This document shows, one piece after another, positions 11,512-15,764 of a stretch of 52,350 nt of DNA. Positions within the stretch are counted from its first letter, which is position 1; each line of letters starts with the position of its first letter. The position numbers were made by a program, and so were the translations under genes. Under the pieces are notes generated by a model. That model saw only the letters and a list, made by a program, of their open reading frames with translations. It was not told the DNA's origin and made no database searches. Origin of the DNA: Bacillus sp. (in: firmicutes) (GTDB taxonomy: Bacteria > Bacillota > Bacilli > Bacillales > Bacillaceae); NCBI GenBank assembly GCA_031180805.1, contig JAPSLL010000025.1:5083-57432 (forward strand), in the 5' to 3' direction.

Positions 11512-12228
11512 TTATAATCGACAAACTTGTATTGGACAATCCTCACATTTACAAATACTGCGGAGTCCTTCCAGGTTAAGAATTGTAATATATCCCTTAT
11601 CATATGCTACAAGTCCATCTCTTCTATATTGATTTATGATCCGTGTCACTGTTTCTCTAGGGGTTCCTATTAAACAGGCGATTTCATCATGTGTAAACTT
11701 TTTGGTAATTTCCCATTTTTCATTGTTTTTAATACCATATGTGTTTGTCATACGAATGAGGACAGATGCCAATGCACCATTTTTCCCAAAAAACATTAAA
11801 TCTCTTAGCTTTGTTTGTGTTAAAAACTGGGAATAACTTACCCATTTTGTAAATTCAATTGAAAACTCACGATTACGCCACAAAAGCATTTCTATCTCTT
11901 GTATTTCGATCACACCAATAACAGAATCTTCAATTGCTTTCGCATTTTCCATAGCTCTTCCATCATCATGAGACATGTAATCTCCGAACATATCATCTTT
12001 CGTATAATAATTTAATGTTAACACTTTACCTTCATCATTGCTTTTATAAAGAGTAATTGTTCCTTTTACTAAATAAAAAAGCTTATTTACCTTTTCTCCT
12101 TCAGAATATAAATATTCACCAGCTTTTAGATGAATTGTATTCATTCTTTGTTTTAATTCATCCATGCTGTTATTCGATAAGAAATGGGTATTCACTACTT
12201 TTTCGTTCGCTTTCACTGCTGCTATCAT
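11512..12228 (-). CDS. fnr: Fnr, anaerobic regulator with C-terminal iron-sulfur cysteines
   Basis: Crp/Fnr-family regulator of 238 aa, the same length as B. subtilis Fnr. The N-terminal cyclic-nucleotide-like beta-roll (about residues 20-115) is followed by the dimer helix and the helix-turn-helix HDEIACLIGTPRETVTRIINQ (residues 180-200). The C-terminus ends in C226-K-C228-x2-C231-x4-C236. The C-x2-C-x4-C part matches the cluster ligands of B. subtilis Fnr (Cys227/230/235), which senses oxygen through a [4Fe-4S] cluster completed by an Asp. It is therefore of the Bacillus, not the E. coli, type. GGTGG precedes the ATG by about 7 nt. Upstream lie a perfect palindrome and a weak FNR-like site. 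Confidence 0.93.
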   Translation of the reverse strand: MIAAVKANEKVVNTHFLSNNSMDELKQRMNTIHLKAGEYLYSEGEKVNKLFYLVKGTITLYKSNDEGKVLTLNYYTKDDMFGDYMSHDDGRAMENAKAIEDSVIGVIEIQEIEMLLWRNREFSIEFTKWVSYSQFLTQTKLRDLMFFGKNGALASVLIRMTNTYGIKNNEKWEITKKFTHDEIACLIGTPRETVTRIINQYRRDGLVAYDKGYITILNLEGLRSICKCEDCPIQVCRL

Positions 12229-12255
12229 CTCATTGCCACCCCGCCGTTCTTTTGT

Positions 12256-12312
12256 CTTATATCTTCATTGTAAAGAGCTTACAGGAAAATTGTTATGAGG
12301 GAATTCCCTCAT
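12256..12312 (-). promoter_or_regulatory. fnr promoter region with 18-bp palindrome
   Basis: ATGAGGGAATTCCCTCAT (12295-12312) is perfectly palindromic. Its AGGG-N4-CCCT core resembles the TAGGG-N4-CCCTA site reported for staphylococcal NreC. On the minus strand a TATAAG hexamer (12261-12256) lacks a good -35, as expected for an activated promoter. The palindrome centre would be near -54. Promoter and factor assignment are inferences. Confidence 0.55.
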
Positions 12313-12337
12313 TTCGCTCCTGTTTTTCCCCTATGTA

Positions 12338-12353
12338 AGTGATAAATGTTACG
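12338..12353. promoter_or_regulatory. Weak FNR-like site upstream of fnr
   Basis: AGTGA-TAAATG-TTACG matches the TGTGA-N6-TCACA pattern at 7 of 10 arm positions. It lies about 110 nt upstream of fnr and may indicate autoregulation, but the match is poor in one half. Confidence 0.25.
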
Positions 12354-12558
12354 ATTTTGCAACAAAGAGCGAAAAATACGGGAAAGATGTTCTTGTTGAG
12401 GCCGATAAACTTTGAAAGAGGTAAGAGGAATATTTATTGACTAAAAGGCGCTTTTCAAACTCGAACATATGTGGGGCACGCTTCTTTAGCAGGAGTCTTA
12501 CGTACACTCAAAAAAGTGCTAACAATTCAATAAATAAGCTTAACATAGCCAACTAAAA
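12354..12558. other. Gap upstream of fnr
   Basis: No ORF with a ribosome binding site is visible between the fnr regulatory sites and the PAS-kinase terminator. The 13-mer TTAACATAGCCAA (12540-12552) directly after that terminator repeats one next to the secDF terminator. Confidence 0.4.
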
Positions 12559-12590
12559 AAGAGAGCATCACTGATTACCTATGCTCTCTT
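12559..12590 (-). terminator. PAS-kinase terminator overlapping the stop codon
   Basis: GAGAGCAT (12561-12568) pairs with ATGCTCTC (12581-12588), extended by AAA/UUU pairs and followed on the minus strand by UUUUUU. The stop codon of the kinase gene sits in the loop, so the last codons are part of the terminator. Confidence 0.8.
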
Positions 12591-14352
12591 TACTAAACGG
12601 TACTTTTAATGTAATGGTTGTACCTTTATTTTTGATTGATGATACGTTTAAATCAGCGTTTATCGTTCGTGCTCTTTCCTCCATACTAAATAGTCCGACT
12701 CCACTTTGTGTTTTCGTTGGATCAAAGCCAACCCCTTTATCAGTGATAGAAACTTCAAGATACTCTGTCCTTTCTACTATAGATAAGGCAAGCTCATCTG
12801 TTTTGGCATATTTGCGTGCATTTGTTATCGCCTCTTGCACAATTCGATAAATATTCGTTTCCACATCAGACGAAAGCCTTCTTTGGAGCTCATATGTAAA
12901 ATATGTTTTCAACCCATAATGCGTTGCAACCTTATTAATAAAGGAGCGGATAGCTGGGATTAATCCTAAATCATCCAATATCGATGGTCTTAGTTGCCAT
13001 GAAATTTGTCTTATTTCCTCAATTACATTTGAAATCTCCATTTCAATTTGATTAATAATTTCTGGGTCAGGTTTTGAACGTAAACGATTTGTCATGATAA
13101 GAAGACTATACAGATTTTGGCCAATTCCATCGTGAAGCTCTCTTGATAGTTTTTTCCGTTCATCCTCTTGTAAGCCGATAAGCTTTCTCATCATTTGCTG
13201 AAGTTCTTCCTCTGCCTGTTTTCTCGCTGTGATTTCATTACGTATCGCTAAAAATTGATATGGTTTCCCTTCATTATTAATAAATGGAATAATCGTCGTA
13301 TTAACCCAATAATACGTACCATCCTTCGCTTTATTTTTGATTTCACCCTTCCATACCTTTCCTTTACCGATAGTTCTCCAAAGCTCCTTAAAAAATTCAA
13401 GAGAGTGAAATCCTGAATTTATAATCCGATGACTATTGCCAATCAGCTCCTCCCTACTAAACTTCGAGATTTTGCAAAACGTATCATTTACATATGTGAT
13501 GATTCCACTTCGATCAGTAATTGCTACAATTGAAGATTCATCAATGGCAAATTTTAAATCATACAGTTCCGCAATTGTTTCCTCTAGCTCTGCTTCGGCC
13601 CGTTTTCTTGCTGTGATCTCATTGCGAATCGCTAAATATTGATATGGTTTCCCCTCTTTATTTAGAAATGGAACGATCGTTGTATCGACCCAATAATACG
13701 TACCATCCTTCGCTTTATTTTTGATCTCACCTTTCCATACCGTACCAGAGGCAATCGTCTGCCACAAATGGCGAAAAAAATCAGCTGAATGATAACCAGA
13801 GTTCACTAATCGATGGCTTTTTCCGATTAATTCTTCCCGCGAATATTTTGAAACCTCACAAAATTTATCATTTACATATGTGATAATCCCTTGTCTGTCT
13901 GTTATCGCAATGATTGAGGATTCGTCTAAGGCAAACTTCAAATCAACTAGCTCTGATAACGATGCTTGAAGCTCCTCATTTATTCCTTGATTTGATTGCA
14001 TCTCATCTTTATCATCAGCTACTGATAACATACAATAATGGTGATTTTCCAGCTCAATCAATTCGCTCGATAGAAGCCAGTTAGCCGATATCCCATTAAT
14101 TGAGGCTTTTGTCGTAAGTGTACAATGCTGAGCAGAAAATAATTTTTTTACATTAAGCAGAGGAAAAAGAGACTGAACGTCCTTGCCCTTCCATTCTGTT
14201 ATTTGCAAATTAAATCGTTCTTGCGCTGCTAGATTAATTGCATTGATCCTGCCCATCTCATCGATGATAATCAATGCAACAATTTTATTCCGAATCATTT
14301 GTAAATTCTTTTCCTTTCTCTTTGATTTCATACTCCTTCCATTATACACCAT
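12568..14352 (-). CDS. PAS-domain sensor histidine kinase, HisKA_3 type
   Basis: Soluble kinase (594 aa, no TM) of the NreB/NarX class. A degenerate PAS fold occupies about residues 20-115. Two nearly identical PAS-PAC units follow (about 137-259 and 266-388). HisKA_3 has the phospho-acceptor H407 in LSRELHDGIGQN, then a HATPase_c domain with N-box QEAITNARKYA and G-box DKGVGFD. The PAS motif WKGEIKNKAKDGTYYW resembles flavin- or haem-binding Aer-type PAS. The four-cysteine iron-sulfur cluster of true NreB is absent, so the signal may differ. The start overlaps the regulator gene by 11 nt; ATG at 14331 is an alternative. It probably phosphorylates the adjacent LuxR-type regulator. Confidence 0.9.
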   Translation of the reverse strand: MVYNGRSMKSKRKEKNLQMIRNKIVALIIIDEMGRINAINLAAQERFNLQITEWKGKDVQSLFPLLNVKKLFSAQHCTLTTKASINGISANWLLSSELIELENHHYCMLSVADDKDEMQSNQGINEELQASLSELVDLKFALDESSIIAITDRQGIITYVNDKFCEVSKYSREELIGKSHRLVNSGYHSADFFRHLWQTIASGTVWKGEIKNKAKDGTYYWVDTTIVPFLNKEGKPYQYLAIRNEITARKRAEAELEETIAELYDLKFAIDESSIVAITDRSGIITYVNDTFCKISKFSREELIGNSHRIINSGFHSLEFFKELWRTIGKGKVWKGEIKNKAKDGTYYWVNTTIIPFINNEGKPYQFLAIRNEITARKQAEEELQQMMRKLIGLQEDERKKLSRELHDGIGQNLYSLLIMTNRLRSKPDPEIINQIEMEISNVIEEIRQISWQLRPSILDDLGLIPAIRSFINKVATHYGLKTYFTYELQRRLSSDVETNIYRIVQEAITNARKYAKTDELALSIVERTEYLEVSITDKGVGFDPTKTQSGVGLFSMEERARTINADLNVSSIKNKGTTITLKVPFSKESIGNQ

Positions 14353-15001
14353 ACCCTAGTAAGCCCTTTTTCAAGGCGTATTCAACTAGCTCAGGTCTTG
14401 TTTTTAATTTTAATTTTTCCATAATATGCGATTTGTGATTTTCAATTGTTTTAACGCTTAGCACTAATTTTTCAGCTATTTCTTTATTTGAAAAACCTTT
14501 TGCAATTAGTGTTAGGACCTCTTTTTCGCGTTCCGTTAAGAGTGAATATGTATCCCGATCTGCCCCATTTTTTATTCGGTCAAGATAGTCTTCCATTAAT
14601 CTTTTTGTTGCTGTTGGATATAAATAAGCAGAGCCTTCTGCAACGATTTTGATTGCCTGTACTAATTCATGATGCAAGGCACTTTTCAAAATACAGCCAG
14701 AGGCTCCAGCTTGGATAACACGAAACAAATATTCTTCATCATCATGCATCGTTAATATTAAGATTTGTGTTTCAGGCCATCTTCTCTTTATTTCGATCGT
14801 TGCGGAAAGTCCATCTCTGCCATGGGGCATACTTAAATCCATTAACACAAGATGTGGCTGTAATTCCTCCACCTTTTTTATCGCTTCCTCTCCCTCTGAA
14901 GCCTCCCCAACAACTTCTACGCCATCAACTTCATTTAATAGCATTTTCAACCCTGAGCGTACGACTGCATGGTCATCCACTAATAAAATAGTTGTTGACA
15001 C
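14342..15001 (-). CDS. NarL/NreC-type response regulator
   Basis: Two-domain regulator of about 219 aa. The receiver domain has the acidic pair in LLVDDHAVV, phospho-acceptor Asp in LVLMDLSMP, Thr in LILTMHDDE and Lys in CILKSA. The C-terminal LuxR/GerE helix-turn-helix reads LTEREKEVLTLIAKGFSNKEIAEKL. GTG at 15001 is preferred because GGAGG lies 9 nt upstream; GTG at 15010, overlapping the preceding stop, has GGAGG immediately adjacent. It sits between a degenerate kinase and a full kinase. The palindrome upstream of fnr is a candidate target. Confidence 0.92.
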   Translation of the reverse strand: MSTTILLVDDHAVVRSGLKMLLNEVDGVEVVGEASEGEEAIKKVEELQPHLVLMDLSMPHGRDGLSATIEIKRRWPETQILILTMHDDEEYLFRVIQAGASGCILKSALHHELVQAIKIVAEGSAYLYPTATKRLMEDYLDRIKNGADRDTYSLLTEREKEVLTLIAKGFSNKEIAEKLVLSVKTIENHKSHIMEKLKLKTRPELVEYALKKGLLGYGV

Positions 15002-15006
15002 TTTCT

Positions 15007-15648
15007 TCACCCTCCGTTCGGTATCCGTATATTTACTTCTATCTCTTTATGATTTTTCTTAAAAAAACTAATGACCCCGCCTACTGCCTTAAGTCTTTTT
15101 TCAAGTGCCAACATAGTCAGGTTTAGCCTTTCAAAGCGATCGATTTCTCTTTCAGAACAAAAAGAAAAATCTACTTTTACATATAAAGCTTCTCCCCAAA
15201 GTCCGTATATCTCAACATGCTGTGGCAAGGAATATGATAAAGTCTGGTTCATAATATCTTTAACAGTACGATACACAATTAACTCTGTTAAAATTGGGTA
15301 ATCCTTTTTATCTCCCAGTTCTTTATACTCTACTACGAGTCCATATCGCTTCTCGATACTAATTAACAATGATTTCAACGTCCCATCGATTCCTTTATGA
15401 AAGAATGGATGCACATCATTTGATAATATTCGCAAATCCTCTATCGTTCTTTTTGTTAAGTTTACCATTTCATCTATGCCTACTCTATCTTTGCTATCAC
15501 CAGATTGTCTCTGTAAATATTGCAAATGATTAAATACTGCGTATAAATTTTGGGCAATATCTTCATGGAGAAAGCTTGCGATCCCCTTTAATTCATTTTC
15601 ATAGGCTTCAATGATGAGGGAATCCATTCGTTCTTGTTTGATATCCAT
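15007..15648 (-). CDS. Degenerate HisKA_3-type kinase-like protein
   Basis: First gene of the two-component operon (213 aa, soluble). A dimerisation/phospho-acceptor helix is clear: GIASFLHEDIAQNLYAVFNHL, with His in the HED position used by HisKA_3 kinases. The region that should be the ATPase domain keeps ELIVYRTVKDIMNQTL in place of the N-box, with the key Asn apparently replaced. No DxGxGF or GxGL G-box can be found. It may be a phosphotransfer intermediate, phosphatase or inhibitor rather than an active kinase. ATG at 15648 has AAGGTGG 5 nt upstream; GTG at 15657 is the alternative. A perfect FNR box lies about 100 nt upstream. Confidence 0.72.
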   Translation of the reverse strand: MDIKQERMDSLIIEAYENELKGIASFLHEDIAQNLYAVFNHLQYLQRQSGDSKDRVGIDEMVNLTKRTIEDLRILSNDVHPFFHKGIDGTLKSLLISIEKRYGLVVEYKELGDKKDYPILTELIVYRTVKDIMNQTLSYSLPQHVEIYGLWGEALYVKVDFSFCSEREIDRFERLNLTMLALEKRLKAVGGVISFFKKNHKEIEVNIRIPNGG

Positions 15649-15716
15649 AGTTTCCACCTTTATTCATGTATCATCTGATTAGGAATGGAGTATGTCTTGA
15701 AGTTTTACACATCCCC

Positions 15717-15764
15717 ATTATAGTTTAATCGTCTAAGAGAAATTTTCATGTGATCAATGTCACA
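15717..15764 (-). promoter_or_regulatory. FNR box and -10 element of the two-component operon
   Basis: TGTGA-TCAATG-TCACA (15749-15764) is a perfect match to the FNR/CRP-type consensus used by B. subtilis Fnr. On the minus strand TATAAT (15722-15717) follows 34 nt from the box centre, placing it near -46. No -35 hexamer is recognisable, consistent with activator dependence. Binding by the nearby Fnr is inferred. Confidence 0.7.

Follow-up and report, generated by a model that had tools for sequence, protein, structure and literature searches.

In some Metabacillus, an NreBC-derived two-component system and the transcription factor Fnr probably activate each other, with the first protein of the two-component operon acting as a brake, whereas in other Bacillales the regulator would act directly on a nitrate-reductase-like operon. 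In the circuit that we propose, low oxygen or a reduced state would be sensed by the flavin-type PAS domains of the kinase, which would then phosphorylate the NreC-like response regulator. The regulator would bind a palindrome just upstream of the −10 hexamer of fnr and activate fnr. Fnr of Bacillus subtilis is active once its Fe–S cluster forms without oxygen. Active Fnr would in turn switch on the two-component operon from an Fnr box, closing a mutual positive feedback, and would drive output genes. The first protein, a former kinase without ATP-binding boxes, would probably be a phosphatase or phosphotransferase brake, judged from its His and HExxxQ motif. If this holds, the cell would have two independent oxygen/redox sensors in series and coupled by mutual feedback, a design that could make the change between aerobic and anaerobic states sharp or bistable. 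The original prediction had been a reciprocal loop of this kind: conservation, motif transfer and promoter geometry speak for both of its arms, but control of classical nitrate respiration found no support.

The operon, fnr and their candidate sites

The window, the whole stretch of 52,350 nucleotides that was analysed, comes from a genome of 4.58 Mb in 119 contigs. On the minus strand, it encodes in order the first protein (15007–15657, 216 aa), the NreC-like response regulator (14342–15010, 222 aa, REC and GerE domains), a sensor histidine kinase (12568–14352, 594 aa, two PAS domains, HisKA_3 and an intact HATPase) and then Fnr (11512–12228, 238 aa, Pfam cNMP_binding and HTH_Crp_2). The first protein is a degenerate second kinase that retains His31 and HExxxQ and has lost its ATP-binding boxes. 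The C-terminus of Fnr, CKCEDCPIQVCRL, carries a CxCxxCx4C cysteine cluster, which together with the CRP-type HTH marks it as a Bacillus-type Fnr.

A perfect FNR box before the operon and a perfect AGGG-N4-CCCT palindrome before fnr had been claimed, and both are there. The candidate Fnr box, TGTGATCAATGTCACA, is at 15749–15764, 92–107 bp upstream of the start of the first operon gene. The candidate proximal box of the response regulator, ATGAGGGAATTCCCTCAT, is a perfect 18-bp palindrome at 12295–12312, 67–84 bp upstream of the fnr start. Each is the sole exact match of its motif in the 52-kb window, and mismatched versions of both are about as frequent as in shuffles (7 versus 6.3; 21 versus 24.6). 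The −10 hexamer of the fnr promoter, TACAAT (12267–12272, minus strand), follows TTCCC at 26 nt. A candidate operon −10, TATAAT (15717–15722, minus strand), lies 26 nt past the Fnr box; the alternative TAAACT (15722–15727, minus strand), at 21 nt, is weak, with 4 of 6 letters. At 12318–12335 there is a degenerate distal second box, of which the ATAGGGGAA half alone remains in the window genome; by alignment, this box is fuller in G054, G057, G058, G059 and G068.

Searching 80 genomes of the family with the first protein (E ≤ 1e-10) yielded nine genomes, all Metabacillus (9 of 21 of the genus), and a search of the same 80 for Fnr (E ≤ 1e-40) yielded 11, again all Metabacillus. A scan of genome contigs gave four Metabacillus matches and two weak proteobacterial ones. 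The operon and fnr are close neighbours in 9/9 operon genomes, and the Fnr cysteine pattern is conserved in all nine. These nine form about four sets of close relatives, so the counts overstate their independence. G061 is of the same genus as the window genome, and the two first proteins are 94% identical.

For a wider comparison, a profile of the first protein was run against 397 genomes of the order. It matched 232, mostly via longer kinases. As comparison loci we took all 20 among the matches listed (own genome excluded) that had the match in a frame of less than 270 aa. All 20 share the order first protein, regulator, a protein of 143–163 aa, kinase. Nineteen adjoin an operon for a NasC-like molybdoenzyme, an Fe–S protein and a Rieske protein; a NarI-like protein is also encoded wherever the sequence extends that far, and NarK in 17 of the 19 (by eye). 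Family tests of the linked genes were run on one locus (L135), plus the NarK-PAS protein of L146. The L135 molybdoenzyme reached 867 bits with NasC, under the cut-off of 1100; Rieske protein and NarK were also identified, and the NreA-like protein scored 101.8 bits, under the cut-off of 175.

Sensor proteins and the question of nitrate

The N and G1 boxes of the first protein are present in all 19 listed linked systems, a pattern search found G2 in 18, and in L134 the alignment alone shows it. All three boxes are absent in the nine Metabacillus genomes and in G165, that is, in 10/10 detached systems. HExxxQ around the His is present in 29/29 first proteins compared; the phosphatase motif of HisKA_3 proteins is H[E/D]xxxQ. 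In the reductase-linked relatives, the first protein is apparently an active second kinase. Since the Metabacillus protein has kept the His and HExxxQ but lost the ATP-binding boxes, its sequence suggests a stand-alone phosphatase or phosphotransferase. An AlphaFold model of moderate confidence (pLDDT 71) is nearest to histidine kinases, with DesK among the top matches, at a TM score of about 0.5. Kinases of the DesK/NarX type are kinase-phosphatases, and Spo0B is a phosphotransferase that descends from a kinase and whose ATP domain is dead. The first protein resembles these proteins in its modelled histidine kinase fold and its dead ATP domain, but it is encoded beside a complete second kinase, and its phosphatase or phosphotransferase role is putative. 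The locus thus offers a genetic setting to ask what a histidine kinase without ATP binding still does.

The sensor kinase begins with a PAS-like region (by eye), ahead of its two PAS domains. The second and third PAS regions are most like those of MmoS and Aer, and the PAS domain of NifL follows among the next matches. As MmoS, Aer and NifL are flavoproteins, the kinase is likely a flavin redox sensor, unlike the Fe–S type of NreB. PAS domains of the NreB Fe–S type have clustered cysteines; the kinase has four isolated ones (77, 107, 165 and 293) and no CxxC. The expectation that the sensor arm differs from NreAB was therefore borne out by the FAD-like PAS domains, the lack of clustered cysteines and the failure to find NreA at the locus. 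As for the regulator, no listed NCBIfam model scored above its cut-off, but the label NreC-like is apt: it shares 72% identity with a regulator whose gene has NreA- and NreB-like neighbours.

This identity, and the reductase-like operon with NarK next to that relative, would also fit a true NreABC circuit that senses nitrate and oxygen and runs nitrate respiration. The own genome encodes a NarK-PAS protein as well, and an Fnr box stands before the broken gene that precedes it. Against this reading, NarG was above the family cut-off in 0/9 operon genomes and was rejected as an output. Tblastn with an NreA relative, run on the window and on 12 loci of the other eight operon genomes, found no NreA at any of them. 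The reductase-like operon is present in four of the nine, at 86% (G053), 85% (G054), 63% (G063) and 61% (G061, partial) identity. It was not found in the own genome, where the best matches were 46% and 32%, nor in the 12 Metabacillus genomes without the two-component operon (matches ≤ 49%). We therefore consider it unlikely that nitrate respiration of the classical kind is under the control of this system. The sulfide response of B. licheniformis NreBC, as described in the accessible part of the report (PMC9918477), also argues against a nitrate circuit.

Three known systems invite comparison with the loop. In NreABC of Staphylococcus, according to the accessible parts of two papers, a response regulator acts on a GC-rich palindrome, together with a PAS kinase, in oxygen and nitrate control (PMC8139620, PMC5694512). 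The Metabacillus system is alike in its GC-rich palindrome (here a putative target), its PAS kinase and a proposed role in oxygen/nitrate control. It differs in that no NreA was found at its loci, in FAD-like rather than Fe–S PAS domains, in the extra degenerate kinase and in the apparent target, fnr instead of nar. ResDE is of a different regulator family from the NreC type. In B. subtilis, ResDE controls fnr, and Fnr controls nitrate genes, as far as the accessible text goes (PMC8139620), so two-component control of fnr is in itself already known. In Metabacillus, a two-component system would likewise control fnr, but an Fnr box also precedes the two-component operon. We recognised no report of fnr control by an NreC-type regulator, or of the return arm, in a literature search that covered few subscription journals and some sources only in part. 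NreBC of B. licheniformis also has a regulator of the NreC type, and its DNA site is like that of staphylococci; it controls sqr and pdo, and the accessible part of that paper shows no link to fnr (PMC9918477). Because that system senses sulfide, the signal of the Metabacillus system may not be nitrate either.

The NarK-PAS protein combines a nitrate transporter of the NarK type with a PAS domain, fused at the C-terminus, like that of the sensor kinase. In the own genome, it is encoded on contig C13 (L041:9474-11000). Upstream of it, a ric/ScdA-like gene (by eye; L041:8285-9050, also C13) contains an in-frame stop as well as a frame change, and this broken gene is the one preceded by the Fnr box. 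Further fusions are found at L146:5189-6703, L168:10767-12281 and L170:3658-5193, and at least 10 of the 20 listed loci of the order have a frame of this type, 504–512 aa long, ahead of the first protein. The gene is downstream of the reductase-like operon in G053 and in G054, where it is in pieces. Several genes of the two-component and reductase operons appear split in G054 as well (L047, L169), possibly by sequencing error or decay. No report of such a fusion was recognised in the same literature search, with its few subscription journals and partly accessible sources.

The proposed Fnr arm

The Fnr box is at the same time a consensus of the CRP family. Its exact form occurs at 13 places in the 4.58-Mb genome versus one in the reversed control. 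Two of the 13 are intragenic (by eye), and five also match the Rex consensus TGTGAAN4TTCACA, which the operon's box does not fit. Judged by eye, the genes near other exact Fnr/Rex-type boxes of the own genome (L020, L021, L023, L027, L029-L031) resemble ywiC, hemY, ldh, qoxA, DoxX and a second CRP-family gene.

Upstream of the first operon gene, 6/9 genomes have an Fnr box that is exact (three) or has one mismatch (three). The other three (G053, G057, G059) have none in the 340 bp upstream of this gene and carry an exact box before adh, which is directly upstream of the operon on the same strand. Either the operon or the adjacent adh is thus preceded by an Fnr box in 9/9 genomes, and the position of the box shifts between lineages. 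Among the 19 listed reductase-linked systems, where the first-protein gene is internal to a long gene cluster, no Fnr box was found within 300 bp upstream of the first protein. A −10-like hexamer stands 21 nt past the box in all six direct operon cases (4 or 5 of 6 letters) and at 3/3 Metabacillus reductase-like promoters. It is weak in the adh cases (3 of 6 letters), and G165 has no −10 at this distance. As a yardstick, 5 of 28 genome-box rows reach four letters at 21 nt, the own operon among them; the window operon has its better −10, the perfect TATAAT, at 26 nt instead.

The operon's box might instead serve Rex or a CRP-family protein other than Fnr. The second CRP-family gene adjoins another such box (L031, by eye), and the Rex and Fnr motifs overlap, according to the accessible part of the source (PMC2883068). 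But in the boxes of the operon and of the reductase-like promoters, the Rex GAA/TTC ends are missing from at least one side, and the operon was never seen without Fnr in the 80 family genomes, being present in nine. We regard use of the box by such a protein as improbable and favour Fnr itself.

The candidate regulator box at fnr and at reductase-like promoters

The own genome has a single copy of AGGGAATTCCCT, the 12-bp palindrome core, and this copy is the one at fnr. GAGGGN4CCCTC occurs three times versus none in the control, and one of the two places away from fnr resembles a terminator (by eye). The staphylococcal form of NreC-type sites is TAGGGN4CCCTA. It was rejected as a motif: it is not enriched in the own genome (656 versus 1075 in the control, ≤ 2 mismatches), and neither of its two exact places there adjoins nitrate genes (by eye). 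The genome scan suggested with the original prediction did not reveal any other group of palindromes near nar, nas or nir genes among the places examined. Nor did pattern counts in the genus genomes give any sign of a larger palindrome regulon. Among the matches listed, mean forward counts of AGGGRAN{0,2}TYCCCY were 6.1 in the nine operon genomes versus 6.7 in ten without the operon, both above the reversed control; the own genome has five such places among the matches listed, and the one inspected besides fnr (L188) is intragenic. TNAGGGN4CCCTNA averaged 2.4 in the nine (1.4 minus the fnr site) versus 1.3 in the ten. Some palindrome places away from fnr look common to close relatives; of four palindrome places inspected, two (L086, L099) are intragenic and two (L093 in G061, L100 in the own genome) lie between sufU-like and sufB-like genes. 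Since the bare pattern is weak as proof, the weight of the argument rests on conservation.

AGGGAATTCCCT is found upstream of fnr in 9/9 operon genomes versus 0/2 genomes that have fnr and lack the first protein (G060, G055), a weak contrast pair, as G060 was classed by the first protein, without a regulator search, and G055 holds a related system elsewhere. In G060, where the operon is absent and fnr adjoins a trpB-like gene, both flanks of the fnr promoter align with those of the other Metabacillus promoters, and the palindrome itself has decayed. Across the 21 genomes of the genus, AGGGAATTCCCT occurs 10 times in the nine operon genomes (nine at fnr; the extra site, in G057, is intragenic) and seven times in the other 12. 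Two of these seven were inspected. The G065 site is intragenic, and that of G055 lies 69–80 bp upstream of the kinase-like third gene of a distant system (L220:12314-15234). This exact site, a membrane-type kinase and a regulator of 55% identity show that G055 possesses its own, distantly related system; in the kinase-like protein of that system, the His of HExxxQ is apparently replaced by Tyr (by eye).

To score these sites independently of Metabacillus, we used the reductase-like promoters of the comparison loci. GGG...CCC boxes are present in all 17 with upstream DNA (of the 19 listed), and 13 of the 17 have two boxes 20–22 bp apart by the pattern used. A two-half weight matrix built from 25 boxes of these 17 promoters, with no Metabacillus sequence in it, scored 19.4 to 25.3 at the nine Metabacillus fnr promoters versus −1.4 (G060) and −4.7 (G055) in the contrast genomes. 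Resampled sequences matched the fnr promoter scores in 0/150 cases in eight genomes and in 1/150 in G058. Within the 52-kb window, the matrix ranks 12295–12312 top; the next independent site scores 17.5. The DNA-binding domains of the regulators are closely similar between the Metabacillus and the reductase-linked groups. The promoter geometry is shared too. TTCCC is followed by the −10 (TACAAT or TAAAAT) at 26 nt in 9/9 Metabacillus fnr promoters, and the same spacing is found at fnr of G165 and at 15/17 reductase-like promoters (including G368 and G426), the other two having 27 nt. At the G434 reductase-like promoter, the hexamer at 26 nt has just 4 of 6 letters, and a better one lies at 29.

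A regulator bound at the palindrome could also repress fnr, which would make the feedback negative. Sites abutting the −35 region can serve repression, and a −35-like hexamer lies at the box edge in the fnr promoter. However, the geometry is common to the reductase-like promoters and the −35 is poor; both are typical of activation, and repression seems to us to have little chance of being the true sign. Still less credible is a reading in which some other factor recognises the palindrome, or the site works in the RNA as a hairpin or terminator, and only synteny connects it with the operon: palindrome and operon are indeed neighbours, and RNA of 12275–12345 folds better than shuffles (z −2.6), but the site is not terminator-like and lies upstream of the −10, the perfect palindrome is limited to the 12-bp core in 7/9 operon genomes, the box also marks reductase-like promoters of other genera, and in G060 it decayed while its flanks persisted. 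We thus retain activation of fnr by the NreC-like regulator as the preferred reading.

The reductase-like operon itself appears to have changed control. In G053, G054 and G063, which provide the three Metabacillus promoters available, it is located apart from the two-component system. Fnr boxes are present at 3/3 of these promoters (one with a mismatch) versus 0/17 of those listed elsewhere, and regulator boxes at 0/3 versus 17/17 (Fisher 0.0009). The link therefore appears rewired in Metabacillus, from regulator acting directly on the reductase-like operon, as in the relatives, to regulator acting on fnr and Fnr on the target. The comparison would be a natural case of one regulator passing its target promoter to another. 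A fuller history, for which we put the chances at about even, is that an NreBC-type system once directly ran a nitrate-reductase-like operon and in Metabacillus was cut down to about one target, fnr; Fnr boxes then closed a loop of mutual activation, the second kinase became a pseudokinase phosphatase and the nitrate sensor was lost.

Outside Metabacillus, a search of 22 genomes gave 25 Fnr homologues, spread over 19 of the genomes. Just two of the 25 promoters score at least 19, those of G168 and G165, and the next scores 13.9; by the weight matrix, the fnr promoters of G440, G383 and G434 have no regulator box. G268 and G234 have a linked system and no Fnr match at 1e-25. The swap is not universal, since in G168 the reductase and fnr each have a regulator box. 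In G165, which belongs to another family, an NreA-containing two-component system lies near fnr; a regulator box precedes fnr, and the system is preceded by an exact Fnr box. Cytochrome-oxidase-like genes (by eye) are also near the G165 system (L138) and adjoin fnr in 7/9 Metabacillus loci (L045-L051, L054-L056), the exceptions being the window and G061.
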